A DNA stretch of 64,000 nt, from contig JAAZMR010000028.1 in the NCBI GenBank assembly GCA_012798695.1, positions 62,001 to 126,000 on the forward strand, in the 5' to 3' direction. Origin of the DNA: Bacillota bacterium (GTDB lineage: Bacteria > Bacillota > Limnochordia > DTU087). Made by a program: the position numbers and the translations under genes. Below are positions 8,903 through 51,965 of this stretch, one piece after another (within the stretch, counting starts at the first letter, position 1; each line of letters begins with the position of its first letter). The notes beneath the pieces were generated by a model. The model did no database searches, was not told the origin of the DNA, and saw only the letters and a list, made by a program, of their open reading frames with translations.

Positions 8903-8934
8903 TCTCTTCACCTCCATCTGTGCGACTACCGCCA

Positions 8935-33246: not shown

Positions 33247-33283
33247 CCAAAAGGCCTCACCCCCAATAACCGGAGGCGAGGCC
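33247..33283 (-). terminator. Rho-independent terminator of the inositol operon
   Basis: Minus-strand stem GGCCTCGCCTCC-GGTTATT-GGGGGTGAGGCC (12 bp, two G-U pairs) followed by TTTTGG, 55 bases after the iolG stop. It marks the 3' end of the nine-gene operon. Confidence 0.85.
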
Positions 33284-33337
33284 CATTGCGTTAAGGGTAT
33301 TCCCTTTTACTTGTCGGGTCAAGGAAGTCCAGCAGTT

Positions 33338-34360
33338 CTAACCAATCTCTGACAGCTTAACAGGCCGATTCTCTACAGCTGATTTTGCAGCAGCCATAGC
33401 GATTAGAAGAGACTGCAGGCCGTCTTCTCCGGTTACCGGAGGGACAGTGTTTGCCTTTACACAAGTGACGAAGTCATTCATTTCTTCTGCAAAAGAATCC
33501 ATATAACGCTCTAGGAAGAAATAGAGCGGTTTATCACTGATCACGCCATCTTTGTTGCTGACGGTGACCCGTGTAGGTGCTTCGTTCTGAGCGGCAGCAG
33601 CCCCCTTGGAGCCAAATACCTCTACCCGCTGGTCATAACCATAGACTGCCTGACGGCTGTTATCTATGGTACAGACAGCGCCATTGGCAAACTTGAGTAG
33701 TGTTACCGCTGTATCAAAGTCGCCGGCCTCCTTAATCTGCGGGTCAATCAATACATTACCTACGGCATAGACCTCGATTACGTCACTGCCTGTCAGATAA
33801 CGGGCCATGTCAAAATCGTGAATCGTCATATCCATAAAAATGCCACCGGAAACCTTCACATATTCCAAGGGAGGTGGTGCGGGATCCCGAGACGTAATAT
33901 TGACTATGTGCGGTTCACCGATTTCTCCGGATTCAACTAATTGGCGAATGTGCTTGAAGTTCCGATCAAAGCGGCGATTGAAACCGATCTGCAGTTTCGC
34001 CCCAGCCTTATCGACAGCTGCCAGAGCTTGCTTGGTTGCATCTAGTTTCTGGGCAATGGGTTTCTCACAGAAAATCTGTTTTCCCGCCCGGGCTGCTTCG
34101 ATTACATACTCTGCATGTGTACTGGTGGGTGAACAGATCACCACCGCATCGATCGTGGCATCATTGATCAGTTCTTTCGGCTCTGCTACTACCTTTTCAA
34201 TCCCATATTGAGCTGCCCATTGTTGCGTGTTCTCTACATCGATATCTGCGACTGCCACCACCAAGGCATCGGGCACTCTGTAAACTAGATTTTCAATATG
34301 AATTTTGCCAATTCGACCGGCACCGATAACACCAATACGCACCTTTCCATCACTGGCCAT
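33338..34360 (-). CDS. iolG: Inositol 2-dehydrogenase (Gfo/Idh/MocA family)
   Basis: Oxidises myo-inositol (or an isomer) to 2-keto-myo-inositol with NAD. The Rossmann fold opens RIGVIGAGRIGKIHIENLV; the family motif EKPIAQ lies near residue 100 and the catalytic segment GGIFMDMTIHDFDMARYL near 170-190 supplies Asp/His. It has 340 residues, normal. The ATG at 34360 is eight bases after AGGAG; one two codons upstream is too close. It follows iolE by 11 bases and is the last gene of the operon. Specificity within the family is inferred from context. Confidence 0.88.
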   Translation of the reverse strand: MASDGKVRIGVIGAGRIGKIHIENLVYRVPDALVVAVADIDVENTQQWAAQYGIEKVVAEPKELINDATIDAVVICSPTSTHAEYVIEAARAGKQIFCEKPIAQKLDATKQALAAVDKAGAKLQIGFNRRFDRNFKHIRQLVESGEIGEPHIVNITSRDPAPPPLEYVKVSGGIFMDMTIHDFDMARYLTGSDVIEVYAVGNVLIDPQIKEAGDFDTAVTLLKFANGAVCTIDNSRQAVYGYDQRVEVFGSKGAAAAQNEAPTRVTVSNKDGVISDKPLYFFLERYMDSFAEEMNDFVTCVKANTVPPVTGEDGLQSLLIAMAAAKSAVENRPVKLSEIG

Positions 34361-34371
34361 ATTCATCTCTC

Positions 34372-35268
34372 CTAAAAACCGAGTTGCTCTCGTAAGTATT
34401 CTCTAGCCTTAACTGCATACTCCAAAGGTGGAGCAAGGGCAGGATCTTGCTCAGCTTCTACGATAATCCAGCCTTTATAATCGATCTCGTCCAGTGCCTG
34501 AATAACCGGAGTGAAGTCAATCATCCCATCCCCGGGGACAGTGAATACTCCTTGCCTAACTGATTGCAGGAAACTCAACCCTTCATCAAACGATCTTTGC
34601 ATTATGGTGGGACGCAGGTCCTTGAAATGCACATGCTGGATGCGTGGACCAAAGGTCTTGACTATTTGCACGGGATCGCCGCCGGCAAACACTATGTGGC
34701 CCGTATCCAAAAGTAGATGAACCAACTCTGGATCAGTGAGCTCCATCAGTTTTTCTGTTTCGGCGAAGGTCTGGACTCCAGTGCCCATATGATGATGATA
34801 CACGATCTTCATATCCTTCTCCCTGGCCAACCGGCCCAGCTCTTCTAGACCCACAGCTAGCTTGTTCCACTCGGTCTCAGTAAAAACCGGCTTATTTTTG
34901 TGCAGGGGTACATCCATCTGGCCCTGTATGGATTTCCCCTGCTCAGAAACAACGATTACCTCAGCCCCCATGGCATGCAGAAAATCGCGATGTTCGATAA
35001 ACGCATCATAGGTTTCTTGCGGGTCTTTTGTGGTAAAATAAGCGCTAAACCAGGCGCTTGCAATGGAAAGGCCCCGTGGCTTGAGAGCCGCGGCCAATGT
35101 CTTAGGATCCCTGGGGTATTTGTTGCCGACCTCGCTGCCGACATAGCCCGCCTGTGCCATTTCATCTATGCATTGCTCGAACGAGATCTCGCCCCCTAGT
35201 TCAGGCATATCATCATTGGTCCAAGCGATTGGAGCTACACCCAGGCGTATATCACCTTGTCTCAACAT
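34372..35268 (-). CDS. iolE: Myo-inosose-2 dehydratase
   Basis: Dehydrates 2-keto-myo-inositol to 3D-(3,5/4)-trihydroxycyclohexane-1,2-dione. It is a xylose-isomerase-like TIM barrel. Landmarks are RLGVAPIAWTNDDMPELGG at the start, GYVGSEVGNKYP, YHHHMGTGVQTFAE, LLLDTGHIVFAGGDP and HVHFKDLR, which provide the metal-site Glu/Asp/His. The ATG at 35268 is six bases after GGGGGTG; the longer frame to 35295 adds atypical residues. It lies between iolD and iolG. Confidence 0.93.
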   Translation of the reverse strand: MLRQGDIRLGVAPIAWTNDDMPELGGEISFEQCIDEMAQAGYVGSEVGNKYPRDPKTLAAALKPRGLSIASAWFSAYFTTKDPQETYDAFIEHRDFLHAMGAEVIVVSEQGKSIQGQMDVPLHKNKPVFTETEWNKLAVGLEELGRLAREKDMKIVYHHHMGTGVQTFAETEKLMELTDPELVHLLLDTGHIVFAGGDPVQIVKTFGPRIQHVHFKDLRPTIMQRSFDEGLSFLQSVRQGVFTVPGDGMIDFTPVIQALDEIDYKGWIIVEAEQDPALAPPLEYAVKAREYLREQLGF

Positions 35269-35319
35269 TCCGAACACCCCCACATATTCGTTCACAACAA
35301 AACACCTGTACTACAAGGC

Positions 35320-37191
35320 TCACCATTTCCTGGCTCTCGTCAATACCTCTTCATGTTGAGCATGAGCTGCAGTCACCTGCACGTTATCTGAGATCTCTGC
35401 CACTCCCACCCGCCAATATGATTCATAGCCCTCTGAGTGGGTGCCCGGAATGACCTTGATATCGATTAGAGCTGCACCTTCCGCCTTTTGCGCTTTCTCT
35501 AAGGTCCCTCTCAAATCAGCCAAGTCAGTGACAGTATACGCACTGGCGCCAAGACTCCTGGCGATACCGGCGAAATCAACAGTGATATAATCACCATCAA
35601 GTCTGCCGCTAGCAGAACGATAGCGCAATTCATTGCCGAAACCAGCCTGACTGCCATGTTCCTTCTGCAAGCTCTGGATACACTGGAAACCACCATTATC
35701 AAACATGAGGATAGTGATCTTCCGCCCTTCCTGGACAGCAGTGAGCAGCTCCGAGTGCAGCATGAGAAAGCTGCCATCACTGACCATCGCATAGACATCC
35801 TTGTCAGGTTCTGCCATTTTGACGCCTAAAGCCCCGGCAATCTCATAGCCCATACAAGAAAAGCCATATTCCATATGGTAAGTTTTGATCCCCTTGGATC
35901 TCCACATACGATGTAAATCACCGGGCAGTCCCCCTGCGGCGGCTACAATGATATCGTTTTTTGTCAGGAAATCATTGACCACTCCCAAAGCTGTGGTCTG
36001 CATAATCCCATCCTTTGATTGCAGAGAATAGAGCCGATCGACTTCCTGGTTCCACTTCGCCTTGAGGTCAGCCAGATAGTCTGCGCTATATGCAGTCTTA
36101 TACCCCACCTCCTTCAAAGCTTGGGTGAGTGCCAGCAGACCTAATTTGGCGTCTGCTCCGAGGAAGGTAGATGACATTTTAAGACCATCGAAGGCACAGA
36201 CATTCATATTGAGAATCTCGACCTCGGGGTTTTGAAAAGCGGTTTTCGATGCTGTGGAGAAATCTGTTAATCTAGTGCCCACGGCGATAATCAGGTCTGC
36301 CTCTTTGGCCAGTCTATTGGCGGCCAACGTACCAGTAGTCCCCACTCCCCCCATGTTCAGGGGGTGATCCCAGGTGAGAATGCTCTTGCCGGCTTGAGTT
36401 ACCGTTATGGGGATCTGAAAGGCCTCGGCAAACTGCTGCAGCTCTTTTCCGGCCAGGGCATAGTGGACACCACCACCCGCAATAATCACGGGGTGCTGCT
36501 TGCCCTTAATCAACTGCACTGCTCGCTTGATACTGCCCTCAGAGGCCGGCCGTCGGTCAATATGCCATACCCGCTTAGCAAAAAACTCTATGGGATAGTC
36601 ATAAGCTTCACCTTGGACATCTTGGGGCAGGGCTAAGGTAACTGCACCGGTATCTGCCGGATCGGTGAGCACCCGCATGGCATTGAGGGCTGCAGTCATC
36701 ACCTGTTCCGGCCGCTGAATCCTGTCCCAATACCGACTGACTGCCTTAAAGGCATCATTAGCGGTAATAGTGTAATCATGGGGCATCTCCATTTGCTGCA
36801 AGACTGGGTCAGGTTGCCGGTCGGCAAAGATGTCTCCTGGTAATAGAAGAACTGGAATCCGATTAACTGTGGCAGTGGCGGCACCGGTCACCATATTCAG
36901 AGCTCCAGGCCCGATGGAACTGGTACAAGCCAAGATCCCAAGGCGGTTTTTCTGTTTAGCAAAGGCCGTGGCCGCATGTACCGCCCCTTGTTCATTATGT
37001 GCTTGATAATACCGTAGGGATAGACCCTCCGTGTTCTCTAGGGCTTCCCCGATTCCCAACAGGTTGCCATGACCAAAAATACCATAGACACCGTGGACAA
37101 ACTTATACTCCTGATCATCAAGTTCGACATACTGAGCATCTAGGAATCTAAGCAGTGCCTGGGCCATAGTTAACCTAATGGTCTTACTCAT
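35320..37191 (-). CDS. iolD: 3D-(3,5/4)-trihydroxycyclohexane-1,2-dione hydrolase
   Basis: Thiamine-diphosphate enzyme that opens the inositol ring to give 5-deoxy-D-glucuronate. N-terminal ThDP Pyr domain: VHGVYGIFGHGNLLGIGEAL and IGPGALNMVTGAA. Middle domain: KQHPVIIAGGGVHYA. The C-terminal PP domain has EYGFSCMGYEIAGALGVK and the magnesium-binding VSDGSFLM with downstream NGGFQCI. It has 623 residues, typical for IolD. SD AAGGAGG lies seven bases before the ATG. Its start overlaps the iolB stop by eight bases. Confidence 0.95.
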   Translation of the reverse strand: MSKTIRLTMAQALLRFLDAQYVELDDQEYKFVHGVYGIFGHGNLLGIGEALENTEGLSLRYYQAHNEQGAVHAATAFAKQKNRLGILACTSSIGPGALNMVTGAATATVNRIPVLLLPGDIFADRQPDPVLQQMEMPHDYTITANDAFKAVSRYWDRIQRPEQVMTAALNAMRVLTDPADTGAVTLALPQDVQGEAYDYPIEFFAKRVWHIDRRPASEGSIKRAVQLIKGKQHPVIIAGGGVHYALAGKELQQFAEAFQIPITVTQAGKSILTWDHPLNMGGVGTTGTLAANRLAKEADLIIAVGTRLTDFSTASKTAFQNPEVEILNMNVCAFDGLKMSSTFLGADAKLGLLALTQALKEVGYKTAYSADYLADLKAKWNQEVDRLYSLQSKDGIMQTTALGVVNDFLTKNDIIVAAAGGLPGDLHRMWRSKGIKTYHMEYGFSCMGYEIAGALGVKMAEPDKDVYAMVSDGSFLMLHSELLTAVQEGRKITILMFDNGGFQCIQSLQKEHGSQAGFGNELRYRSASGRLDGDYITVDFAGIARSLGASAYTVTDLADLRGTLEKAQKAEGAALIDIKVIPGTHSEGYESYWRVGVAEISDNVQVTAAHAQHEEVLTRARKW

Positions 37192-37990
37192 GATCTTGCC
37201 TCCTTTCAGGAAACATCACCGCTTCTTCTTCCATCACCCATTTATGCTCTGGAACAAAGGTCGGTACACCATAAGGGTTATCATCCAGGTGCCGGATCAC
37301 CCAGATATAGTACATGGCATAACCCGGAGCCGTAATATGGGGATGTACTTTGCTATCGAGAATCTTGACTGAGTCATGATCAGTCAAGAGATAAGCTTCA
37401 TCCCCAATGATGCCCACTCCAAACCCGTGGCTAGGCAGGAACCGGTAATGATAGATCTCCGGTTGGGGATGATGGTGAGGTGGATAGCTCGACCACTTCC
37501 CGGGAAAGTCCACTACTTCACCTACAACCAAGTTAGAATAAGGAGCATTGGTCTTGTCAAAGATAGTCCTGACAATCCTCGTGGAGGTTTCCTGCATGGT
37601 GCCCTTGCCTCGTTCTTCACTACGGGTATCTGTCGCACTATAGAATCTCGGGACAAACTTCACATCACCACTGGTACGTGTGATGTTTAACTCCACATCG
37701 GTATGAGCTGTGATCTTGAGTGCCACATTGGGAGGCAAGTGTAGACAGCTGGGATTGTCGTGAAATAGGGATTCCCTTTCAGCGTGCTGCTCTTCTCCAT
37801 CGAAACTAAATGTGACAGAACCGGTCATGAGCAGCCATGCGCTCTCCTTAGGGCTCTTTTCTTCGTGGACTTCACCGGCCCGCAGCCGTAGGAAGCCGAA
37901 GTCCATCATAGTATTGGCCTGGGCCTCATCCTCAGTAGTAACCGTTGTGTAACCCCACTTGAATGGACCTTTCGCTTTTAAATGATACAA
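37184..37990 (-). CDS. iolB: 5-deoxy-glucuronate isomerase
   Basis: Cupin enzyme converting 5-deoxy-D-glucuronate to 5-dehydro-2-deoxy-D-gluconate (DKG). The double-cupin fold shows the metal motif SSYPPHHHPQPEIYHYRF near residue 165-180 and the late KVHPHITAPGYAMYYIWVIRH. Length 268 is normal. TTG 37990 is eight bases after GGAGG. It is immediately downstream of the split transketolase genes, with 12 bases between them. In the known pathway DKG is next phosphorylated by IolC, but no iolC is in the operon. Confidence 0.94.
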   Translation of the reverse strand: MYHLKAKGPFKWGYTTVTTEDEAQANTMMDFGFLRLRAGEVHEEKSPKESAWLLMTGSVTFSFDGEEQHAERESLFHDNPSCLHLPPNVALKITAHTDVELNITRTSGDVKFVPRFYSATDTRSEERGKGTMQETSTRIVRTIFDKTNAPYSNLVVGEVVDFPGKWSSYPPHHHPQPEIYHYRFLPSHGFGVGIIGDEAYLLTDHDSVKILDSKVHPHITAPGYAMYYIWVIRHLDDNPYGVPTFVPEHKWVMEEEAVMFPERRQDHE

Positions 37991-38002
37991 AACACAGCCT
38001 CC

Positions 38003-38971
38003 TTAGTTCTTTTTATGCAATACCTTTTGCACACTATCGACTATGGCATCAGCCGTCAATCCAAAACGCTGCTTTAGGTAAGCGACATCTCCCACTTCAC
38101 CAAAGAGATCGCGGACTCCCACTCTCTCCATGACCACTGGGTGTTTTTCTGTCAACACTTCCGCTACAGCTGAACCTAAGCCGTTAATAATGCTGTGATT
38201 CTCTGCCGTAACGACTGCTCCGGTCTTCTGAGCACAGCTAATCACCAAGTCTTTGTCAATGGGCTTAAGTGTGAAGATGTTGACTACCATGGCTGAAATA
38301 CCTTGCTGGTCAAGAATATCTGCTGCATCTAATGCCTCAGCTACCATGATGCCGATCGCAAAGATGGTGACATCCTTGCCCTCCCGTAAAAGAGCCCCTT
38401 TGCCGATAGTAAATTCCGATCCTTCCTTATAGATACGAATAGGATTTTTCCTAGCTATGCGGATATAAAAGGGCCCTGGTGTATCAATAACTTGAGGAAG
38501 GATCGCTTTGACCATAGTGTTATCAACTGGTTCAACTACAGTCATAGTGGGGATAGAGCGCATGATTCCCAGATCGTCAAAGGGCATATGAGTGCCACCA
38601 TTATAGGCCGCAGTGATACCAGGATCAGTCCCCACTATCTTGGCATTAAGCTGTGCATAGGCTATGGATACATAGATCTGATCTAGTGCTCTGCGGGAAG
38701 CGAAACAAGCAAATGTATGGCAGAAAGGTACTTTGCCTGTGGCGGAAAGCCCACCGGCAATACCGATCATATTGGCTTCTTGTACTCCGACATTGATAGA
38801 CCTATCCGGATAGGCCTCCTGGAAAGCGATGGTCCCATTAGAGTGCATCAAATCCGCGTCCAAGACAACGATACGCTCATCCTTTGCTGCCTGCTCTAAT
38901 AGGTGTGCCATATATACGTCCTTCATTTGAAGTTCATCAGGGATGCGTTGATCTACTAAGTTCGCCTTCAA
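38003..38971 (-). CDS. Transketolase, C-terminal subunit (split type)
   Basis: Carries the pyrimidine-binding and C-terminal domains of a two-chain thiamine-diphosphate transketolase. Motifs: IVVLDADLMHSNGTIAFQ, SINVGVQEANMIGIAGGLS (ThDP Glu), FACFASRRALDQI, and NGGTHMPFDDLGIMRSIP, where relatives show G-x-SHQ-x-x-ED. The Arg near FYIRIARKNP is retained. Several residues of the substrate channel look unlike standard enzymes (DLMHSNG in place of DLSGSTKT; THMP in place of SHQA). It overlaps the N-terminal subunit gene by four bases. Context suggests it may act on DKG, the IolB product (inference). Confidence 0.88.
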   Translation of the reverse strand: MKANLVDQRIPDELQMKDVYMAHLLEQAAKDERIVVLDADLMHSNGTIAFQEAYPDRSINVGVQEANMIGIAGGLSATGKVPFCHTFACFASRRALDQIYVSIAYAQLNAKIVGTDPGITAAYNGGTHMPFDDLGIMRSIPTMTVVEPVDNTMVKAILPQVIDTPGPFYIRIARKNPIRIYKEGSEFTIGKGALLREGKDVTIFAIGIMVAEALDAADILDQQGISAMVVNIFTLKPIDKDLVISCAQKTGAVVTAENHSIINGLGSAVAEVLTEKHPVVMERVGVRDLFGEVGDVAYLKQRFGLTADAIVDSVQKVLHKKN

Positions 38972-39825
38972 GCTTGTTCCCCCCTTTTCCAGGCTCCCTC
39001 ATACCCTAAAGCCTTGAGCGCATCTTCTATCTGCGCGGGAGTGAATCGCATATGATGGTTGAGCTTGATCCCCTCAGCAAACTGACAGCCTTTACCCTTG
39101 ATTGTATCTAAAATGATCACGGAACTGCGACCTTTAACCGCTTTTGCCTGATGAATAGCTTCATAGATAGCGGTTACATCATGGCCATCAACCAGCTGAG
39201 CATACCAGCCGAAACTCGCCCACTTTTCAAGAAGATCGCCCAATGAGTTGATATCCTTGGTATAGCCATCTAGCTGCTGTTTGTTCTCATCGACAAAGAC
39301 TATGAGATTGTCTAGTCCGGCATTGCCGCCATAGAGGGCTCCTTCCCAAACTTGCCCTTCCTGACATTCACCGTCACCCAAGATAACATAGACACGATTA
39401 TCCTTCCCGCTCATTCTCAGGCCCAAAGCTACCCCCAATCCAGTAGACATCCCCTGCCCGAGGGAACCGGTGGTCATGTCTACACCGGGGGTTAGGTTTC
39501 GATCACAGTGACTAGGTAGGTTTGTGCCGCCCTGATTGAGGGTGAACAACATGTCCTTGGAGAAAAAGCCTCGCAAGGCTAATGCAGCATACAGAGCGGG
39601 ACCGGCATGTCCTTTAGAAAGCACTAACCAATCCCGTTCTTCCATGTCGGGCCGGTTGGGATCAACTCGCATGACGCCACCGTATAATACGGCCAGCACC
39701 TCGACAATGGACATTGCACCCCCGATATGCCCAAATCCAAGATTGCCTAAGGCCTTCAAAGTCTCAATTCTTATTTCCCTGGCAAAACTGTTCAATCTTG
39801 CCACTTCGTGTTCTGCTAACAACAA
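38968..39825 (-). CDS. Transketolase, N-terminal subunit (split type)
   Basis: Carries the pyrophosphate-binding domain of the split transketolase. Motifs: LGNLGFGHIGGAMSIVEVLAVLYG (His contacts), DWLVLSKGHAGPALYAALAL, GSLGQGMSTGLGVALGLRM, and the ThDP/metal motif VILGDGECQEGQVWEGA, with FVDENKQQLDG downstream. Length 285 is normal for the split type. TTG 39825 is six bases after GGTGG and overlaps the end of the larA-like gene by ten bases. Split transketolases often sit in dedicated sugar pathways rather than the central pentose phosphate pathway. Confidence 0.9.
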   Translation of the reverse strand: MLLAEHEVARLNSFAREIRIETLKALGNLGFGHIGGAMSIVEVLAVLYGGVMRVDPNRPDMEERDWLVLSKGHAGPALYAALALRGFFSKDMLFTLNQGGTNLPSHCDRNLTPGVDMTTGSLGQGMSTGLGVALGLRMSGKDNRVYVILGDGECQEGQVWEGALYGGNAGLDNLIVFVDENKQQLDGYTKDINSLGDLLEKWASFGWYAQLVDGHDVTAIYEAIHQAKAVKGRSSVIILDTIKGKGCQFAEGIKLNHHMRFTPAQIEDALKALGYEGAWKRGEQA

Positions 39826-41093
39826 TGCTCACCACCTGAACTGCCAATTTGGGGCAGTGTTGAGGCTCCATAAGGAAACACTGCATATGCCATATCTTCA
39901 CCAACTATGGTAAACCCTGCTCTGATGGCATCTTCGATATTCCGGTAAGTATCGATGCCAACCAAGTCTTCATGGACCAACTGCTCAGAAGTAACCAATA
40001 GCACCTTGATATCATTGGCTATCTTGGCGATGGCCGCGGCCTTGTGGCCACCCAAGACAAATTCTTTGCGAAGCGCCTCCAAAAGCTGTGCTGGTTCTTT
40101 TTTTGAAGTCATCCATTGTCGAAAGATCTTATTGCCATACCCTTCCCGGCATTCAGCCACCAAGATAATGACTCCGCCTTGGCGCACGACCCCGGCACAA
40201 TTATCCAGGGCCTTCTGTGCCTGGTAAAGATTGATATCCTTAGGATCGCCACCTGCACTGACAATGGCTAGATCCAGTCGCTGGGGTACGGAAACTGTGC
40301 CCGCTTGCCGCAAGCGCTCACATAATCTGCGGTGAGCTTCAGTTAGGTCGCCGGCACTCGCATCAATTACTCTATGCTGCTCATCCACAATCACATTGAG
40401 CAGAAAATCCACTCCCACCATGGAAACGGCTTCTTCTAAATCCTCCCGAACGGGATTGCCCTCTAGCCGAGCAGCCATGGCGCTATCTTCAACCATATGG
40501 GCATGGTTACTCCTGATGGTAATTGGTGCCGCTACCCCTGGTACTATAGCTTTGGCGCCACCGGAATAGCCGGCAAAATAGTGAAACTCTACATTTCCGA
40601 TACAGATGCGAAAGTCCGCTTCCACCACTGGGCGAAAGATTTCTACAGGCGTCCCCCGCTGCGTCCGCCCCAAGGCCACCACATCGTGAATATCATGGTT
40701 AATCACACTTACTCGCTGAAAAACACGTTCCCCAACCGATTGAGCAAGCTCCTGGGCAGTCATCGGCCTATGCAATCCTAAGCCGATAACTACGGTAATG
40801 TCTTCATCCTTGACCCCAGCGGCATTGAGCCTTTCTAAGATCGGGGGCAGCAGTATCGAATTCGGGCATGGTCTAGTCGCATCACTAGTTATGATGACTG
40901 CTTGCTGGCCCGGTTCCAGGAGCTCCTCCAGCCTGGCTGATCTTGTGGGATGATCGAGGGCCATCTGTACAATCTCTCGTTCTGGTATGCTTACCTCTTG
41001 TCGTATAGGCAGAAACGTGCCCACATGACCTGCCTTGGGCAGTTGTAAAGCTTGAAAACCGTGTCCGTAAGGTAATGCAACTTCAACCGCCAA
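39816..41093 (-). CDS. LarA-family nickel-pincer 2-hydroxyacid racemase (possible malate racemase)
   Basis: Homologue of lactate racemase LarA, which uses the nickel-pincer nucleotide covalently bound to a lysine. The expected residues are visible: His108 (GLGLHRPM), His171 (VEFHYFAGYSGG), Lys181 (GGAKAIVPG) and His197 (IRSNHAHM), each within three positions of LarA numbering, plus SDATRPCP. The family includes racemases of other 2-hydroxyacids including malate. No larB, larC or larE cofactor genes are in the window. The unusual C-terminus ends GSSGGEHCC. It lies between the PGK-like and transketolase genes, which fits racemisation of D-malate (inference). Confidence 0.85.
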   Translation of the reverse strand: MAVEVALPYGHGFQALQLPKAGHVGTFLPIRQEVSIPEREIVQMALDHPTRSARLEELLEPGQQAVIITSDATRPCPNSILLPPILERLNAAGVKDEDITVVIGLGLHRPMTAQELAQSVGERVFQRVSVINHDIHDVVALGRTQRGTPVEIFRPVVEADFRICIGNVEFHYFAGYSGGAKAIVPGVAAPITIRSNHAHMVEDSAMAARLEGNPVREDLEEAVSMVGVDFLLNVIVDEQHRVIDASAGDLTEAHRRLCERLRQAGTVSVPQRLDLAIVSAGGDPKDINLYQAQKALDNCAGVVRQGGVIILVAECREGYGNKIFRQWMTSKKEPAQLLEALRKEFVLGGHKAAAIAKIANDIKVLLVTSEQLVHEDLVGIDTYRNIEDAIRAGFTIVGEDMAYAVFPYGASTLPQIGSSGGEHCC

Positions 41094-41095
41094 TT

Positions 41096-42358
41096 TTACA
41101 CCTTCCTATATGCTTTCTTTAGTGCTTTAATCAAAGGAAGCTCAACCCCGGATAAGAACCGGACCATGGCTCCACCGGCGGTACAGATATAGTCAAAGCG
41201 CGCCTTGGCGTCATCCACCAGCATGGCTGCCGCATTGACACTATCGCCTCCGCCTACCACACTATAGCCTGGTGAAGCGGCAACAGCATTCCATATGGCG
41301 CGTGTCCCCTGTTCAAACAGGGGATTTTCATAGACACCCATGGGACCATTCACAAAAATGGTACCCGCATCTTCAATCACGGATTTATAGCAGGAGATTG
41401 TCTGTGAGCCAATATCCAGGTATAGCACATCATCAATGGGCAATTCGTCCAAGCTGCATTCCACACGAGAGCCATTTCGCTCATAGGCGAAATCCACCGG
41501 GTTTACGAATCGCTCTCCATACTTCTCTATAAACGCCTGAGCTGGTTCTACAAATCCATCTAATGAACGTTCTTTAAGAAACTGTTCTTGTTGCTTGCCA
41601 AAGCTCTTGCCTTGAGCTATCCACATAATCATCCCCGTGACACCACCGGTCAAGATCCGATCAGCACTGCCATTTTCCAGCACTTGCCGGATCATGCCAA
41701 AGGCATCAGAAATCTTCAGTCCACCGAGGACAAAGATCGACGGCCTTTGCGGATTTTCCATGATTGAGTAAAGAGCCTGTACTTCTGAAATGAGCTGCCT
41801 ACCTCCAGCTGTAGGTAGGACCTCAGCAAACCCCACCATGGATGGAGCGTTTCTGTGGGCCGCCGCAAAAGCATCATTGACGTAGTAATCAGCCAAATAT
41901 GCCAACTGGCGGACTAGATAGCAGTCTACCATCTCCCTGGGAGACAATTTAACTGATCGCTCAAAGGTGGATACTTCCTCAGTCAAATACCGAACATTAC
42001 CCAGTAGTACCGCTTCCCCAGGCTGCAGAGCTTTGACTGCACCCTGGGCAGCCGGACCGGCGACATCATCGATATACCGGACAGTCTGACCCAGTCGGGC
42101 AGATAACCTTTCCGCATGTTCACTCAAGGGGATGAGATTATGATAATCCAAAGTGTCGCCCTGGTGGGCGAGAATAGCCACCTTCGCCCCCTGATCCAGC
42201 AGGGTCTTCAGGGTCGGAATACTCTTGTTGATGCGGTTGTCATTGACGATTTTCTTGGTAACAGGATCAAGGGGCGAATTGATATCTACCCGCAAGATCA
42301 CGGTTTTTCCCTGGTAATCAAAATCATCAATGGTATTGATCTGCAAATCAGCTACCAT
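41096..42358 (-). CDS. Archaeal-type phosphoglycerate kinase homologue, altered substrate site
   Basis: Clearly PGK-fold: RVDINSPLDP near residue 23, DNRINKSIPTL, VNDAFAAAHRNAPS, FVLGGLKISDAF, FVNGPMGVYENPLFEQGT and the nucleotide loop SVVGGGDSVNAAAM. These resemble archaeal rather than bacterial PGKs. The normal His-x-Gly-Arg/Lys-Pro loop, whose basic residue helps bind the 3-phosphate of 3-phosphoglycerate, reads HQGDT (Asp68; codon at 42155-42157). The other basic residues (NVRY, AHRN, NDNR) remain. Two bases separate it from the GAPDH-like gene. Proposed: D-malyl phosphate plus ADP to D-malate plus ATP. An ordinary glycolytic PGK cannot be excluded. Confidence 0.85.
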   Translation of the reverse strand: MVADLQINTIDDFDYQGKTVILRVDINSPLDPVTKKIVNDNRINKSIPTLKTLLDQGAKVAILAHQGDTLDYHNLIPLSEHAERLSARLGQTVRYIDDVAGPAAQGAVKALQPGEAVLLGNVRYLTEEVSTFERSVKLSPREMVDCYLVRQLAYLADYYVNDAFAAAHRNAPSMVGFAEVLPTAGGRQLISEVQALYSIMENPQRPSIFVLGGLKISDAFGMIRQVLENGSADRILTGGVTGMIMWIAQGKSFGKQQEQFLKERSLDGFVEPAQAFIEKYGERFVNPVDFAYERNGSRVECSLDELPIDDVLYLDIGSQTISCYKSVIEDAGTIFVNGPMGVYENPLFEQGTRAIWNAVAASPGYSVVGGGDSVNAAAMLVDDAKARFDYICTAGGAMVRFLSGVELPLIKALKKAYRKV

Positions 42359-42360
42359 GG

Positions 42361-43377
42361 CTACCTCCCCAGTTTCAAGTGCTGATTCGTCACTCCAACT
42401 GCCTCTAGGCGATCTGTCTGCATCTCCATGCTGGCCCGAACCGCATCTATGGTCTCGGGAATGACTACTGCTTCCTGGGGGATATTAATGGCAAAAACGA
42501 TCCTGTCTTCAAATACGGTAATGGTTTCCTCCCAAACAGCAATTTCATACATGTCCCCCCTGGGATTACCTAGATCCCGGGCATAGCGGAATAGAGAAGC
42601 ATTGCCCAGAAACCCGTCAGCTAACCGGACAACGCGAATCCTCGGATGAGCTTCAAACAGCTCTAAGATCTCTTCCTTAGTGGTTTCCCGCTTCGGCTTG
42701 GCTACCACAGAAATGATGTGTCCATGGGTGACCGGAGTGTGCACCAGTACCCCGGTTGCCTTTACGTGAGGCATGATCAGCATGAGATCCACAGCCTGAT
42801 GATTAGGTACTGGATCAACTTTCAGGGCATTCGTCAACCCCCGATGATAATCTCCGGGATCTGCCACCCGCCTGATGATAGTAATGATCACGTTCTCGAT
42901 ACCGATCTCCCGATCCAAGCAATCCACCGAGCGAATGAGCCCAGTTGTATTACAGGAGGTAAGCTTTAGAAACTGCTTGCCCATCCCCTGCTCATAGTTG
43001 GCATAACCATGAAAGAAAACATCAGCTACACTAGTTTTTTCTCCACCTTGGAAAACAGCTTTCTTACCATATTTTTCATAGATTTGCTTGTTCTTGGCAC
43101 CGACACCGGCACTAGTCGCATCCAAAATGATATCGACCTTTTGCACCAGATCTTCCAGGGAACCGGAAATTGGAATACCATATTCTTCTACCTTGTCTCG
43201 GTTCTCTGGTAAAGCCAGGTAGAAGTCGTAGTTCATGCCCCTCTCTTTCAAAGCCATTACCGGCAGTGTGGGGCCTATATCAGCTACACCAACCAGTTCC
43301 ATATCCTTCTGTAAAGCAACTCCGTCGGCTAGCCGCTGACCAATCACTCCATAGCCAACTACACCAACCTTAACCAT
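42361..43377 (-). CDS. Archaeal-type (class II) GAPDH homologue, altered substrate motifs
   Basis: Homologue of archaeal glyceraldehyde-3-phosphate dehydrogenase. Rossmann start VKVGVVGYGVIGQRLADGV, nucleophile Cys142 in TSCNTTGLIRS, RRVADPGDYHRG, a His in PVTHGH (His220, the usual catalytic position) and the conserved MYEIAVWEETI. Motifs nearly invariant in archaeal enzymes are changed: GPIN reads GLTN, HHGPD reads HQAVD, PTT-x-MH-x-H reads PVTHGHII, and HQE near the C-terminus reads PQE. ATG 43377 is five bases after AGGAGGG. First gene of the operon. Proposed: phosphorylating oxidation of D-malate semialdehyde. Ordinary GAPDH activity is the alternative. Confidence 0.85.
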   Translation of the reverse strand: MVKVGVVGYGVIGQRLADGVALQKDMELVGVADIGPTLPVMALKERGMNYDFYLALPENRDKVEEYGIPISGSLEDLVQKVDIILDATSAGVGAKNKQIYEKYGKKAVFQGGEKTSVADVFFHGYANYEQGMGKQFLKLTSCNTTGLIRSVDCLDREIGIENVIITIIRRVADPGDYHRGLTNALKVDPVPNHQAVDLMLIMPHVKATGVLVHTPVTHGHIISVVAKPKRETTKEEILELFEAHPRIRVVRLADGFLGNASLFRYARDLGNPRGDMYEIAVWEETITVFEDRIVFAINIPQEAVVIPETIDAVRASMEMQTDRLEAVGVTNQHLKLGR

Positions 43378-43410
43378 AATATCCCTCCTGATGTAATTCA
43401 GATCATCCAC

Positions 43411-43973
43411 TACTCAAGACTTTCGTCGATCCTTGTCGAAAAATCAACTAATTGTCGACTTGGGCCCATGTAGCGTGTCTCCTCGTGAACTTCATATGCA
43501 GTATCCTTTCCGGTTCCTGATGCTAACTACAAGGCCTTGAGCCACAGTCCCCGTAAATCACTAATAGTTTAACGACAGCACTATGGATTTTCGGTCCTAT
43601 TGCGTTCGTTCTCTAGTAAAATGACCAAATCCTGTCTCTCGGTGAGAACTCATGTCAGTTTCTTATGGACTTTGGAACACGTATCCTACTCAGCGAACAG
43701 ATTCAGCACAGCCACCCAAACCACAGCCATTTACAGTTCTGTTTCCACTTCTTGACAATTCATAAAAGTCTCCAGACACAATCATAGACTGGATCCGACA
43801 ATGTTTTCTAGCTTTGCAGGAATTACATATCTTACAAAGAAGATCGCAATACAAACAGCGACTATTTGCCCATTACCGAGTTTGCCAGACACATGGAAAA
43901 ATCCCGCAATTAACAGTGAAGAGAGGACGTATCCAGCCAATGTCAGAGAGCAAACTCCGTTTATAGTAGCAAT
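43411..43973. other. Intergenic region upstream of the inositol operon; no clear gene
   Basis: About 560 bases between the divergent operon start and the transposase remnant. It is visibly richer in A/T than its neighbours. A 63-codon open frame at 43801-43992 has no SD and no recognisable product. A TTGACA at 43752-43757 on the plus strand has only a CACAAT 19 bases later. The region presumably holds the operon promoter and operator; I found no convincing sigma-A pair on the minus strand. Confidence 0.4.
43427..43460. promoter_or_regulatory. Repeated GTCGA motifs upstream of the inositol operon
   Basis: Three plus-strand GTCGA motifs begin at 43427, 43437 and 43456, spaced by one and about two helical turns; the last two extend to TTGTCGA. 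They lie 50-85 bases before the first gene of the operon. A regulator-binding site is possible; none of the local genes is a regulator. Confidence 0.35.
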
Positions 43974-44341
43974 GATCGGATGCGACGCCTGATGAAGGAG
44001 CTCAATCTAGTTCCTATGCAAGTTCGGAAATGTAAAGCAACAATCAATTCTAAACACTCAGTGCCGGTGGCACTTAACCTGTTTAATAGGGACTTCGGGG
44101 CTAATGCACCGTGTCAGAACTGGTTAGGAGATCTTACCTCTCCACAGAGGAAGGGTGGCTATACTTGGGAGCATTTATCGATCTTTATTCCCGGGAAGCT
44201 GTGGGTTGGGCCCCAGGAACTCGTATGACCATGCCATCAGTCCTCGATGCTGTGAACAAAACCCTACAACTCGAACGTCCCTCCAAAGGCCTCATATTCT
44301 GTTCTGACAGCGGTTCCCAGTATGCTCCCCATGATTACCGT
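43974..44341 (+). pseudogene. IS3-family transposase (OrfB) remnant
   Basis: Degenerate integrase-type transposase. The first part reads RRLMKELNLVPMQVRKCKAT then INSKHSVPVALNLFNRDFGA, like the N-terminal part of IS3-family OrfB. Around 44135-44145 the frame shifts, and the second part reads STEEGWLYLGAFIDLYSREA, VGWAPGTRMTM and FCSDSGSQYAPHDYR, containing the first Asp and a degraded second Asp motif of the DDE domain. After HDYR the similarity ends, so the 3' part and the catalytic Glu are missing. No flanking inverted repeats were found. It lies just before an ABC transporter cassette. Confidence 0.8.
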
Positions 44342-44444
44342 TCTGAAAGATTGCATTCTCCAATGAAATGGAAAAAGGTGGTGATATGCAAACAAAAACC
44401 CGGTTGTTGGTGCACGCGAACATACAAATGGGAGGTCATGAAGC

Positions 44445-45737
44445 ATGAAGAGAATCACTAAAACACTCGCATTATGTGTACTAATGGTCTTGCTCATTAG
44501 TATGGTTAGTTTCGCAAAAGGCAAGATCGAGCTAACTGTACAGACTTATTGGGATCCTGAATTGGGTAGTGGAGCGAGGCTCGAACAGTCGTTCAAAGAT
44601 TTTATGGCTCTCTATCCAAACATCGAAGTAAAGCACATTTACCTACCTCGAGATCAACTCATCCAAAGAGTCTTGTCACAGGTCTTGACAGATACCCTTC
44701 CCGACATTGTCTTTGCCGATAATCCTTGGGTAAGGCAATGGGCAGAGGCTGGTGTCTATAAGGACATTACTCCACTAGTTGAACAGTGGGATGACTACGA
44801 AGACTTCTTCCACGGAACCCGAGATGCTTGTACTTTTCAGGGTAGAGCCTATGCACTACAGCTAGTAACCAACAACTTAGCCTTATTCTACAACAAGGAC
44901 ATGTTTGCCGAATTAGGCATAGCTGAACCGCCCAAGACATGGGATGATATCAAAGCCATCTCTGCCAAAGTCACTGCCAATCTCCCTGGGGTATATGGGT
45001 TAGCCTTCTCCGCATGGGATGACGAGGAGTGTACATGGCAGTTTGAGCCTTTCATCTGGAGTAACAAGGGAAGCTTGCTAGAATTGGATCAGCCAGAAGC
45101 CGTGGCTGCCTTGCAGTTCTGGACTGATCTAGTTAATGAAGGATATACTGCTCGTGACTGCTTGAATTGGCGTCAGCAAGACGTAACTCATCAGCTGGTT
45201 AACAAGAAAGTGGCAATGATGGTCATGGGCCCATGGGAAATCCGTTCCGGACTAAAAGATGCCGATTTCGAATACGGCATTGTACCCATACCAGTACCCA
45301 AAGCGGGATACAATCCGGTCAGCCCCATGGGCGGAGAGTGTTTTGGGTTAAGCTCGTCAATAGACCCAAGTAAGATAGACGCGGCTTGGCAGCTAATCGA
45401 GTACCTAGTAGCCCCAGAACATATGGCCGACTTTACCACGGCATCCGCTACCGTTCCCACCCGGGGTGCAGCCCTGGAGTTCGTCTTAGACAGGGAGCCT
45501 CGGCTAGAGGTATTTGCAAAACAGGCAGAGTATGCCCTGGCCAGGACTGTAGCAGGCGGTGGAGAGAAGTATCCTGAGGTCTCAGCCATCACCCGCAGTG
45601 CTATTCAGCGAGCCCTATCGGGTATGATGGATCCTCAAGCTGCATTCACTCAAGCAGCCGGAGAAATCAAGGAGCTTTGGCCTGCCGACGAATACGAAGC
45701 ACTGAGGAACGAGGTACGAGAGGTTCATAGTCGATAG
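44445..45737 (+). CDS. ABC transporter sugar-binding protein (family 1)
   Basis: Extracytoplasmic solute-binding protein for a carbohydrate. The signal peptide MKRITKTLALCVLMVLLISM is followed by VSFAKG, an apparent signal peptidase I site. There is no usable lipobox cysteine, unusual for a monoderm Gram-positive. Mature-protein features typical of the family are ERSFKDFMALYPNIEVKHIY-like N-terminal fold, LPDIVFADNPWVRQWAEAG, ALQLVTNNLALFYNKDMFAELG and GPWEIRSGL. SD GGGAGG is seven bases from the ATG. Two permeases follow. The substrate is unknown; inositol or a pentose is possible given the neighbours. Confidence 0.9.
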   Translation: MKRITKTLALCVLMVLLISMVSFAKGKIELTVQTYWDPELGSGARLEQSFKDFMALYPNIEVKHIYLPRDQLIQRVLSQVLTDTLPDIVFADNPWVRQWAEAGVYKDITPLVEQWDDYEDFFHGTRDACTFQGRAYALQLVTNNLALFYNKDMFAELGIAEPPKTWDDIKAISAKVTANLPGVYGLAFSAWDDEECTWQFEPFIWSNKGSLLELDQPEAVAALQFWTDLVNEGYTARDCLNWRQQDVTHQLVNKKVAMMVMGPWEIRSGLKDADFEYGIVPIPVPKAGYNPVSPMGGECFGLSSSIDPSKIDAAWQLIEYLVAPEHMADFTTASATVPTRGAALEFVLDREPRLEVFAKQAEYALARTVAGGGEKYPEVSAITRSAIQRALSGMMDPQAAFTQAAGEIKELWPADEYEALRNEVREVHSR

Positions 45738-45815
45738 AACGATCGCACTAGATAGTCTTAGCTATTCAATCTTGGGCGGAAGGGGCTTCCCCTTCCGCCT
45801 CAGGAGGTTTTCAAG

Positions 45816-46691
45816 GTGGGCAAGCTCAGATATAGACTCGGTTGTTATTTGTTTCTCTTACCTGCGATTCTTTACATCTGCCTATTATTGATCTACCCCT
45901 TGATATACAACACGGGCCTTAGCTTTAGGGACGTCAGTCTAATCAGTTATATGAAGGGAACCAGCAAATTCGTAGGTTTTGCTAACTATCAAAAACTATT
46001 TAGAGACCCTATCTTTCATAGGATTCTATATAATACGGCTATCTTTATGGTGCTGTCCATTGTGTTTCAGTTTGTCCTTGGTCTTCTGTTAGCTTTGTTA
46101 TTCGATAGGGATTTCCCCCTGAATAACATATTTCAAGGGCTAATACTGCTGCCTTGGTTCGTACCGATTATGGTAAAAGGCAATATTTTTCGGTGGTTCT
46201 TTAGTGATATGGGCACCATCAACGGTTTCCTAAGTTCTTGGGGTATAATTTCTCAGCCTATTCCTTGGATAACTAGCAACAGCCTACCGATTATATCTTT
46301 ATCCATTGCGAATATCTGGCTGGGAATTCCTTTTAACTTCATCTTGCTGTTTACCGGTCTGAAGGGAATCCCCGTGGAACTCTATGAGTGTGCTCAGATT
46401 GATGGGGCAACAAAGTGGTATCAGACAATCTTTATCACTATTCCGCTCCTCAAACCAGTAATTATTACTACCCTCATGCTCGGATCGATTTTCACCATCA
46501 AAGTCTTTGATTTGGTTTGGATTATCACCAAAGGCGGACCCGGCAACTTATCGCACCTGTTCAGTACGTATTCCTACTCTCTGGCTATGGAACAGTTCAA
46601 ATTCGGTATGGGAGCAGCTGTAGCCATCGTCATGGTATTGATTGTAACGGTGATCACCATTGGCTTTAACTCCATCAAGGTCGATTACTAG
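45816..46691 (+). CDS. ABC sugar transporter permease, MalF/UgpA type
   Basis: Six-helix inner-membrane permease. It opens MGKLRYRLGCYLFLLPAILY, contains PLIYNTGLSFRDVSL, and the EAA loop that docks the ATPase reads YECAQIDGATKWYQTIFITI. It has 291 residues, normal length. The GTG start is eight bases after AGGAGG. It follows the binding protein and precedes a second permease by 12 bases. The local sequence looks more A/T-rich than surrounding genes. No ATPase gene is present, so a shared MsmX-type ATPase is expected (inference). Confidence 0.92.
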   Translation: MGKLRYRLGCYLFLLPAILYICLLLIYPLIYNTGLSFRDVSLISYMKGTSKFVGFANYQKLFRDPIFHRILYNTAIFMVLSIVFQFVLGLLLALLFDRDFPLNNIFQGLILLPWFVPIMVKGNIFRWFFSDMGTINGFLSSWGIISQPIPWITSNSLPIISLSIANIWLGIPFNFILLFTGLKGIPVELYECAQIDGATKWYQTIFITIPLLKPVIITTLMLGSIFTIKVFDLVWIITKGGPGNLSHLFSTYSYSLAMEQFKFGMGAAVAIVMVLIVTVITIGFNSIKVDY

Positions 46692-46703
46692 GGGGAGACA
46701 CTC

Positions 46704-47525
46704 ATGAAATATACGTGGAAGGATTGGAAGTGGACGCTGATAGCCCTGATACCGGTATTGATCTTGATCATACCCATTTATTTTGTATTGATCAGCGGTT
46801 TCGAAACCGTGGAAGAGATCTATCATCAGCCTCCATATTTGGTTCCACCCAATCCCACATTGCAGTACTATGCTGATGCTTGGACAACTCTTAATCACTA
46901 CTTGATGAATAGTGTGGTAATATCCGTAGGGGTACTGATCCTGACAATCGTGGTAGCAGCTCCAGCAGCTTTTGCCTTGGCCAAACTCAATTTGCGGGGC
47001 GAGAAAACAGTATCATTTCTGATGGCATTGGTGCAAATGTTACCAGTGACCACGGTCGTCATTCCCCTGTTCCTGATTTTCTTTAAGCTTAAACTTATCA
47101 ATACGCATGTTGGGGTAATCCTTGGTATTTCGGCGTTCACCATCCCCTTTAGCGTAATCTTGCTGACCGCTTATATGCGCTCCATGCCCTGGGGATTGAT
47201 TGAAGCAGCTCGCATCGACGGTGCATCACTCTTCACCATTTTTGTGCGAATAGTGATGCCTATCTGCAAGCCGGCTCTCTCTACCGCTGGAATGCTTGCA
47301 TTGCTGAATGCATGGGGAGACTTCATCTTCGCAATATCCTTTCTGCAAGAGCGATCTCTGCAGCCCATGAGCGTGGGGTTATATAGTTTCATAGGTCAGT
47401 ATGGCACCCAATGGAACTTGCTCATGGCAGGAAGCATGATTTACTCACTGCCGGTGATCATCGTTGTCACCCTCGCCGGTAAAGGATTGGTGTCTGGCCT
47501 AACTGCCGGTGCATTCAAGGAGTAG
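46704..47525 (+). CDS. ABC sugar transporter permease, MalG/UgpE type
   Basis: Second permease of the sugar ABC system. It opens MKYTWKDWKWTLIALIPVLI, shows PNPTLQYYADAW in the first loop, and its EAA loop reads IEAARIDGASLFTIFVRIVM. The C-terminus GKGLVSGLTAGAFKE matches the typical end of this family. It has 273 residues. SD GGGGGAG precedes the ATG. A perfect palindromic terminator follows. Confidence 0.92.
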   Translation: MKYTWKDWKWTLIALIPVLILIIPIYFVLISGFETVEEIYHQPPYLVPPNPTLQYYADAWTTLNHYLMNSVVISVGVLILTIVVAAPAAFALAKLNLRGEKTVSFLMALVQMLPVTTVVIPLFLIFFKLKLINTHVGVILGISAFTIPFSVILLTAYMRSMPWGLIEAARIDGASLFTIFVRIVMPICKPALSTAGMLALLNAWGDFIFAISFLQERSLQPMSVGLYSFIGQYGTQWNLLMAGSMIYSLPVIIVVTLAGKGLVSGLTAGAFKE

Positions 47526-50457: not shown

Positions 50458-50508
50458 TTATCCTTTGATCGATCCTGCCAGCAGTCCCCGCACAAAGTAA
50501 CAATACTT
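50458..50508 (-). pseudogene. C-terminal vestige of an ABC sugar permease
   Basis: Directly after fumB, and overlapping its stop in another frame, the minus strand reads KYCYFVRGLLAGSIKG followed by a stop. This is the typical C-terminal signature of MalG-type permeases (compare RYFVRGLTAGAVKG). No other part of a permease is present, so a deletion has probably removed the rest at the fumB junction. Confidence 0.6.
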
Positions 50509-51085
50509 ACTTTTCGCCGGTTTCTTGGTAATGCTGGGCGAGATAATGTTTCCGCCCGATTGCATAGAGATCATTCCCCAGGGGGTCTACGGCCACGATT
50601 AAAGGAAGGTCTTCTACCACTAAGCGCCTGATCGCCTCAGGCCCTAGTTCAGGATAAGCCACAACAGCTGCTTCCCTAACCGAACGGGCAATTAGTGCAC
50701 CGGCACCTCCGATGGCAGCAAGGTAGATGGCGTGGTGCGCGGCTATGGTGTGCACGACTTCTCTGGCAAGGGGGCCCTTGCCAATGATGGCCTTAAGTCC
50801 TGCAGCGAAAAGTTGAGGTGTATAAGGATCCATCCGCCCACTGGTAGTGGGTCCGATAGACCCAGTGATTTGGCCGGGCCGAGCCGGACTGGGCCCAGTG
50901 AAGTAAATAGTAGCTCCCGCCAATTTGATCGGCAAATCTGTACCTGCAGCCAGAAGCCGCACCAACCGTTGGCAAGCGGCATCCCGAGCTGTAAAGATTT
51001 CTCCACTCAAGAGAAGCCTCTCACCCGCCTCCAGCTGCTTGATGTCATGATCAGTAAGAGGTGTTCGCAGCCGCTGCTTAGCCAT
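50507..51085 (-). CDS. Class I fumarate hydratase, beta subunit
   Basis: C-terminal subunit of a two-chain iron-sulfur fumarase (or the related L-tartrate dehydratase). Landmarks are LLSGEIFTARDAACQRLV, IYFTGPSPARPGQITGSIGPTTSGRMDPY split near residues 60-88, GKGPLA and VDPLGNDLY. ATG 51085 follows GGCGGTGAG by seven bases and overlaps the alpha-subunit stop by eight bases. It would interconvert L-malate and fumarate, which fits as the outlet of the malate route proposed for the inositol operon, though it may be housekeeping. Confidence 0.9.
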   Translation of the reverse strand: MAKQRLRTPLTDHDIKQLEAGERLLLSGEIFTARDAACQRLVRLLAAGTDLPIKLAGATIYFTGPSPARPGQITGSIGPTTSGRMDPYTPQLFAAGLKAIIGKGPLAREVVHTIAAHHAIYLAAIGGAGALIARSVREAAVVAYPELGPEAIRRLVVEDLPLIVAVDPLGNDLYAIGRKHYLAQHYQETGEK

Positions 51086-51965
51086 TTGAACACTCACCGC
51101 CTTTTCTTTGGATAGATTCCCCCACGAGAATAATAGAGCGGCTGCGAGTGGCATGACAGCCGATATTCACGGCTACCGGCAATCCTGCTATGTGAGTAGG
51201 GAAGACCTCAACATTCACTCCCAGTACGGTAGTAGCTCCCCCAAATCCCTGAGGTCCTATCCCCAAATCATTGATTTCATGACAAAGGTCTGTCTCCAAC
51301 TGCCGCAGTGCTGCCACGGGATTGGGCTGAGCTAACGAGCGAACCAGCGCTTTCTTAGCTAGTAATGCGGCCTGCTCCATCGTCCCTCCTACCCCAACCC
51401 CTACTACCATAGGCGGACAGGGGTTGCCTCCCGCTTGGCCTACCGCTTCCAAGACATAACGCTTCACTCCTGGTAACCCATCAGCCGGCCTCAACATCTT
51501 GAGGCCGCTCATATTCTCACTGCCAAACCCCTTGGGGGCAATAGTAATCCTCAGTTCATGCCCAGGTACCACATCATAGTGAATGACTGCCGGAGTATTA
51601 TCACCTGTGTTCCGGCGCTGGAAGGGATCCCTGACTACCGAAGCCCTTAGATAACCCCTCTGGTAGCCTTCCCTGACTCCGTCATTAATGGCATCAGTCA
51701 AAAACCCACCCTCAATGCAAACATCCTGCCCGAACTCAACAAAAACCACCACCATACCACAATCCTGGCAGATGGGGATCTGCTGTTCGGCAGCAATGGC
51801 CGCGTTCCGTAAGAGAGCCTTCAAGATATCTTTGCCAATGGGAGAGCTTTCCTTGACTACTGCAGCTTCTAGAGAATGCCGGATATCATCTGGTAGATAG
51901 TAGTTGGCCTCCATGCAGAGTCTGGCCACTGCAGACGATATCTCCTGTACGTGAATACCAGCCAC
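51078..51965 (-). CDS. Class I fumarate hydratase, alpha subunit
   Basis: N-terminal subunit carrying the [4Fe-4S] cluster. Candidate cluster cysteines are in [16 protein letters not shown] (near residue 60-75), [16 protein letters not shown] and [12 protein letters not shown]. The motif [20 protein letters not shown] is typical. Length 295 is normal. It is translationally coupled to the beta subunit. L-tartrate dehydratase is a close alternative; the malate context favours fumarase. Confidence 0.92.

Follow-up and report, generated by a model that had tools for sequence, protein, structure and literature searches.

In the classical pathway of myo-inositol breakdown (IolG-E-D-B-C-J-A), the first steps lead to 5-dehydro-2-deoxy-D-gluconate (DKG), after which a kinase, an aldolase and a semialdehyde dehydrogenase follow. 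Viewed from its CH2OH end, DKG has the same D-threo head as xylulose 5-phosphate. A transketolase acting on a ketose with a non-phosphate anionic end is described for the Sulfo-TK pathway of sulfoquinovose (SqwGH): this split sulfofructose transketolase carries an RSFHR to RAFDR change, i.e. His to Asp, in the phosphate-orienting motif, and uses glyceraldehyde 3-phosphate as acceptor of the two-carbon unit (accessible text of PMC11659671). Malyl phosphate and malate semialdehyde appear as intermediates of an engineered route to 2,4-dihydroxybutyrate (accessible text of PMC12104201 and PMC5481828), and the malate racemase Mar2 is reported to have a KM for L-malate of 0.38 mM, its cellular role being left open (accessible text of PMC7583248). 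Here we analyse a window of 64,000 nucleotides from a Bacillota bacterium (positions 62,001 to 126,000, forward strand, of contig JAAZMR010000028.1, assembly GCA_012798695.1), in which a nine-gene operon, judged from its gene families, context and residues, probably encodes a route from myo-inositol to D-malate.

The source genome is 2.68 Mb in size, consists of 130 contigs, and is listed as 100% complete and 5% contaminated. No description of an inositol to D-malate route was found in the open literature, as covered by titles, abstract starts and best-ranked matches, with most subscription papers and preprints lying outside; the first-pass annotation of this DNA, made from the sequence alone, likewise knew of none.

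The operon and its recurrence in other genomes

In the open reading frame list of the window, nine adjacent frames, all on the minus strand, make up the operon at 33338-43380. Their families were named by profile searches with NCBIfam and Pfam, and are given below in the order of transcription (GAPDH, PGK, LarA, TktN, TktC, IolB, IolD, IolE, IolG).

42361..43380, minus strand: type II GAPDH-like protein, predicted phosphorylating malate semialdehyde dehydrogenase (TIGR01546 309.5 bits, above the cut-off of 232.9; clade-wide substrate-site changes)
41096..42358, minus strand: PGK-like protein, predicted D-malate kinase in the ATP-forming direction (PF00162 355.3 bits; Asp68 at the Arg65 position)
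39816..41093, minus strand: LarA superfamily protein, predicted malate racemase (NF052593 LarAH6 492.2 bits, cut-off 500; Mar2 as best solved relative; HK signature)
38968..39825, minus strand: transketolase N-terminal half (PF00456; best solved relative the split transketolase of Carboxydothermus)
38003..38971, minus strand: transketolase C-terminal half (PF02779, PF02780; motif with Asp replacing the phosphate-orienting His)
37184..37990, minus strand: IolB/KduI family isomerase, predicted to make DKG (PF04962 195.6 bits; TIGR04378 102.8 bits, cut-off 205)
35320..37191, minus strand: IolD, trihydroxycyclohexane-1,2-dione hydrolase (TIGR04377 925.7 bits, cut-off 715)
34372..35295, minus strand: IolE, inosose dehydratase (TIGR04379 423.8 bits, cut-off 290)
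33338..34366, minus strand: IolG, inositol 2-dehydrogenase (TIGR04380 485.4 bits, cut-off 355)

The nine-gene minus-strand operon and the families proposed in the first-pass annotation are thereby borne out. Its tight packing also stands, albeit with eight intergenic junctions of -10 to +24 bases instead of the "2-51 bases or overlaps" given earlier, but the single terminator has no statistical support, as the window contains 9 terminator-like sites against 9.4 expected in shuffles, i.e. no excess over chance. A promoter scan of the window also gave a signal no greater than chance. The operon arrangement itself exceeds chance, because the same gene order recurs in other genomes.

This recurrence was found with the PGK-like protein as query against public genome contigs, which gave 382 relatives, the best 80 of which were kept as loci: 33 were treated as ordinary archaeal PGK loci and 47 contained a bacterial-type protein. 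A type II GAPDH is present in the same locus in 44 of the 47 bacterial-type loci, LarA in 28, IolB and IolD in 17, the C half of a split transketolase in 16, and malic enzyme in 15, ten of these 15 being without iolD; these counts are lower bounds, because contig ends cut several loci. Among the 33 archaeal loci there was no match to either LarA or malic enzyme. The order GAPDH-PGK-(LarA)-TktN-TktC-IolB-IolD-IolE-IolG recurs across genomes, and is fully conserved from Thermotogae (L007) through several Firmicutes lineages (e.g. L004, L010, L012), so that the gene set which the first-pass annotation expected to be syntenic was indeed found, in the same order, across these groups.

Some loci have an unusual composition. 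L009, counted among the 47 although labelled as an archaeal bin (Candidatus Jingweiarchaeum), encodes a bacterial-type GAPDH-II (79%), PGK and a split transketolase, and probably represents either a recent transfer or a Thermotogae contig assigned to the wrong bin. In a Dehalococcoidales bin (L040:8951-11236), GAPDH-II and PGK form a single open reading frame of 761 residues, which is either a natural fusion or the result of a missed stop. Three Spirochaete loci (L035, L036 and L038) combine GAPDH-II and PGK with a full-length transketolase of the ordinary kind and with a divergent LarA that bears the HK signature; malic enzyme is present in L035 and L038, and the latter also encodes an IolO-type 5-keto-L-gluconate epimerase (307.1 bits, cut-off 300).

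Classical enzymes, active-site residues and the proposed route

IolC (TIGR04382) was over the cut-off in none of the 20 genomes carrying the module, the best match in the window's genome reaching 115.4 bits against 300. IolA (methylmalonate semialdehyde dehydrogenase family) was over the cut-off in one of the 20 (G019, which has no iol genes in its locus) and in three of five comparison genomes; in the window's genome, a search at E 1e-100 gave none. As the first-pass annotation had expected, neither enzyme is thus over the cut-off in the window's genome. Mutual exclusion of IolC and type II GAPDH is seen in a phylum sample of 398 genomes, 18 of which have IolD over the cut-off (G147, with IolD below the cut-off, was excluded): 15 of the 18 have IolC, the remaining three have type II GAPDH, and no genome has both or neither. 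By simple counting, relatedness being ignored, the chance of this split is 1 in 816; two of the three genomes (G070 and G255) appear to be those of L018 and L016, and are not independent of the locus set.

The separate glycolytic enzymes that the first-pass annotation presupposed are present as well. An ordinary GAPDH-I is over the cut-off in 19 of the 20 module genomes. In the window's genome its gene is directly followed by the first half of a PGK gene, which encodes the usual SHLGRP motif and lies at the end of a contig; the back half of a PGK starts a different contig. This rules out that the operon GAPDH and PGK are the cell's only glycolytic pair.

The operon proteins themselves differ from their glycolytic relatives at substrate-binding positions. 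In PGK, three arginines including Arg65 bind the 3-phosphate (accessible text of PMC7729029). Among 73 PGK sequences within length limits, the Arg65 position is Asp in all 42 members of the clade (Asp68 in the window's protein), versus Arg or Lys in all 31 archaeal sequences. Asp is also found there in the 120 best database relatives of the PGK-like protein (119 by pattern, P0006 by eye), while the positions of His62, Arg122 and Arg170 look conserved in the alignments. In the GAPDH-like proteins (55 sequences within length limits, 44 of the clade and 11 archaeal), the paired arginines are retained, as is the SCNTTG motif of the catalytic site. All 44 clade sequences have Gln195 in place of His, His219-Gly220 in place of Leu-Met, and Pro301 in place of His, and 43 of 44 have His179 in place of Lys; all 11 archaeal sequences have the alternative residues. 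Asp34 replaces Lys in 43 of 44 clade sequences (one gap), and this suggests a preference for NAD instead of NADP.

In the C half of the transketolase, the phosphate-orienting His is replaced by Asp in all 17 sequences, within a motif that reads (R/K)SFDR in 16 of them and RAFDR in L032; the corresponding E. coli transketolase numbering includes H461 and D469. All five readable split transketolases encoded outside the operon (in G001, G009, G012, G016 and G017) keep the His; two further non-operon loci (L134, L137) fell outside the reading pattern and were left out of this count. Since the sulfofructose transketolase acts on a ketose ending in a non-phosphate anion, it provides a working precedent for such an activity in a transketolase.

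Malate racemases have H or Q, followed by K, at two signature positions (accessible text of PMC11770544). The best model for the LarA-like protein of the window is the malate racemase LarAH6, followed by LarAH5, also a malate racemase (387.8 bits, cut-off 462), and its best solved relative is Mar2 (333.8 bits), the next being a lactate racemase (221.1 bits). The window's LarA, Mar2 and all 27 full-length locus copies (from 28 loci), even the Spirochaete copies of 31-33% identity, have HK at these positions and keep six residues with catalytic or cofactor roles. The LarA-like protein thus groups with malate racemases, in line with the first-pass annotation, and racemase activity is predicted. 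The Mar2 species, Thermoanaerobacterium thermosaccharolyticum, also has a PGK of the operon clade (P0094). Of the genes for the NPN cofactor, the window's genome has both larB and larC, as do 11 of the 16 genomes in which the locus includes larA.

In the route that we infer from the families and residues, in particular for all substrates and for each reaction from the transketolase onward, IolG, IolE, IolD and IolB would convert myo-inositol to DKG. The split transketolase would then remove two carbons from DKG and leave D-malate semialdehyde (D-3-hydroxy-4-oxobutanoate), transferring the two-carbon unit to a candidate acceptor sugar phosphate, e.g. glyceraldehyde 3-phosphate, with formation of xylulose 5-phosphate and entry into the pentose phosphate pathway. 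The GAPDH-like protein would oxidise D-malate semialdehyde to D-malyl phosphate with formation of NADH, and the PGK-like protein would convert this to D-malate and ATP. As the product would be D-malate, a racemase or a D-malate dehydrogenase is needed, and the loci offer both. After racemisation of D-malate by the LarA-type enzyme, a malic enzyme whose gene lies elsewhere in the genome would convert the resulting L-malate to pyruvate and CO2. The interpretation of the first-pass annotation, inositol degradation by way of D-malate, is as a whole supported by the genome-level tests, which covered IolC, IolA and the separate GAPDH and PGK, the substrates being predicted.

The last part of that interpretation, an exit through fumarase, has fared less well. 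Outside the operon, at 7 kb distance, the window contains the following feature:

50507..51965, minus strand: fumarase alpha and beta subunits (NF004885 400.5 bits, cut-off 276; TIGR00723 158.1 bits, cut-off 145.15)

It is a possible side exit for L-malate. Fumarase alone is not favoured as the main exit, as malic enzyme is found in 15 of the 47 loci versus a fumarase noticed beside one (L072) in the course of an inspection that was no systematic search. The malic enzymes of the loci are of one type, with NF009501 as best model; they score below its cut-off because only the first half of the model is matched and the cut-off was set for a longer protein. A protein of the same family is encoded on another contig of the window's genome. 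The locus of a Thermotogae bin (L008) has no larA; a member of the tartrate dehydrogenase family (TIGR02089, at 544.9 bits against a cut-off of 470.4) is encoded there between tktC and iolB, and this family includes D-malate dehydrogenase. Of the 20 genomes, only that of L008 gave no match to malic enzyme. As an exit, malic enzyme or D-malate dehydrogenase is better supported than fumarase, which may still contribute.

Alternative explanations and a possible wider malate-semialdehyde module

Several observations weigh against the proposed inositol to D-malate route. The IolB-like protein, although inside the Pfam KduI/IolB family, is divergent and well under the cut-off of the IolB equivalog model (102.8 versus 205 bits), and the racemase scores just under the curated LarAH6 cut-off. 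Neither larB nor larC is over the cut-off in five of the 16 genomes whose loci contain larA (G002, G003, G005, G007 and G014), and one of these, G005, has a contig of 1.1 Mb; these genomes are either incomplete bins or have another source of the NPN cofactor. The D-malate dehydrogenase of L008 is a single case, found in one of ten genomes of its family, with no match in the other nine (which were not checked for the module). Transketolase is absent from four of the 17 iolD loci (L005, L013, L015 and L043), and in the genomes G002, G009 and G016, which have such loci, only copies of at most 47% identity were found, the two readable ones both being of the ordinary His type. Conversely, L026 and L047 have an Asp-type transketolase and no iol genes in the locus, and the full-length transketolase of the Spirochaete clusters has the ordinary His motif. 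Finally, the GAPDH-PGK pair stands alone in nine mostly proteobacterial loci (L024, L028, L029, L031, L033, L037, L039, L045 and L046), where LarA, malic enzyme, transketolase and iol genes are all absent.

Three other explanations must be weighed against these data. The GAPDH and PGK relatives could be enzymes of ordinary lower glycolysis that act on glyceraldehyde 3-phosphate and accompany the transketolase, with a racemase serving another hydroxy acid. Both proteins do fall inside the GAPDH and PGK families, with the catalytic Cys motif conserved and most of the PGK substrate ligands in place, but with a GAPDH-I already in nearly all module genomes, with the pair occurring beside malate racemase and malic enzyme even where iol genes are absent, and with clade-wide changes at PGK Arg65 and several GAPDH substrate-site positions, we consider this very unlikely. 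It is also very unlikely that the pair and the racemase make malate from a malate semialdehyde supplied by another reaction, e.g. that of an aldolase, the transketolase having a different job. No aldolase was recognised in the operon by NCBIfam or Pfam, and 13 of the 17 iolD loci have a split transketolase, which bears the His-to-Asp change of the sulfofructose transketolase; the iolD loci without transketolase would fit this explanation, as would the malate modules that contain an HpaI/GarL-type aldolase (L020, L021) or a class III aminotransferase (L030, L041).

The resemblance of the transketolase motif to that of the sulfofructose transketolase, identical in L032, together with the divergence of the IolB-like protein, could also be read as a sign that the actual substrate is a different sugar acid or a sulfonated sugar, for which iol-type genes were recruited. 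IolG, IolE and IolD are above curated inositol cut-offs, however, and together are the enzymes by which inositol is turned into the ring-opened acid, and none of the nine operon proteins matched a sulfoquinovose family among the NCBIfam matches listed at E 0.001, making this explanation extremely improbable.

Beyond the inositol loci, there are loci without iolD in which the GAPDH-PGK pair is accompanied by LarA, by malic enzyme or by both. In L030 it adjoins a gene of the 4-aminobutyrate transaminase type (TIGR00700 517.8 bits, cut-off 506.65), in L041 another class III aminotransferase gene, in L020, L021 and L025 an IolB/KduI-like gene (accompanied in L020 and L021 by the aldolase gene mentioned above). 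L072 has the pair near fumarase and iron alcohol dehydrogenase genes. Because the pair is found beside such varied enzymes without iolD, it may form a general malate-semialdehyde module with several feeders, although the substrates of the non-inositol feeders are guesses. It seems rather likely that bacteria possess an unrecognised energy-yielding lower glycolysis of carboxylates, in which malate semialdehyde is converted through malyl phosphate to malate and ATP. Its input would come from inositol through a specialised transketolase and, in other genomes, from sugar-acid enzymes, aminotransferases or alcohol dehydrogenases; the malate would leave either through D-malate dehydrogenase or through malate racemase followed by malic enzyme.

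Surrounding genes and relation to known systems

Short plus-strand frames at window positions 43980-44461, which separate the operon from a sugar ABC transporter (44445-47525), look by eye like transposase pieces of an IS element, which we presume them to be. Other neighbours for which no family match is cited (ABC transporters, LacI regulators, the IS element) were likewise named by eye, and their names are taken as presumptive. An L-ribulokinase gene (47588-49339; TIGR01234 625.2 bits, cut-off 583.25) lies between the transporter and fumarase genes. At gathering score, Rfam gives a single match in the window, a ribosomal protein L10 leader RNA (8928-9079, minus strand; RF00557, 52.6 bits).

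The proposed route would be a new form of inositol breakdown and, if the predicted reactions hold, would contain a new energy-conserving step, as it would likely form ATP, which the known inositol route consumes at this stage. GAPDH and PGK relatives would then conserve energy from an acid, not from a sugar phosphate, and malyl phosphate, so far presented within a synthetic route (accessible text of PMC12104201 and PMC5481828), would be a natural metabolite. The route would also explain inositol use by anaerobes without IolC, and would provide a role for the LarAH6 malate racemase, which its discoverers left open (accessible text of PMC7583248). The label phosphoglycerate kinase, borne by the named entries among the 120 closest PGK-like relatives, would in that case need correcting. 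As the operon is present in cultured strains, among them Caloramator quimbayensis, Carboxydocella thermautotrophica and Lucifera butyrica, these predictions are directly testable.

Compared with the classical myo-inositol pathway, the operon shares the first steps to DKG, with IolG, IolE and IolD over their cut-offs and a member of the IolB family, but transketolase, GAPDH, PGK and racemase take the place of kinase, aldolase and semialdehyde dehydrogenase, and IolC and IolA are not over the cut-off in the window's genome. The similarity to the Sulfo-TK pathway lies in the split transketolase, its His-to-Asp change, and a ketose with a non-phosphate anionic end whose two carbons pass to glyceraldehyde 3-phosphate (accessible text of PMC11659671); in the operon, by prediction, the head group would be a carboxylate, and the malate semialdehyde left over would be oxidised with formation of ATP. 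With lower glycolysis the operon shares the GAPDH and PGK families and presumably the same logic, from aldehyde through acyl phosphate to acid and ATP, whereas the substrate would be malate semialdehyde, and both the PGK Arg65 to Asp change and the GAPDH substrate-site changes set it apart. The window's LarA has the HK signature of Mar2 and the LarAH6 family, with these as best solved relative and best model, yet at 492.2 bits it remains under the family cut-off of 500. Finally, the engineered malyl phosphate pathway has the intermediates malyl phosphate and malate semialdehyde in common with the proposed route, but is synthetic, begins at malate and consumes ATP (accessible text of PMC12104201 and PMC5481828).

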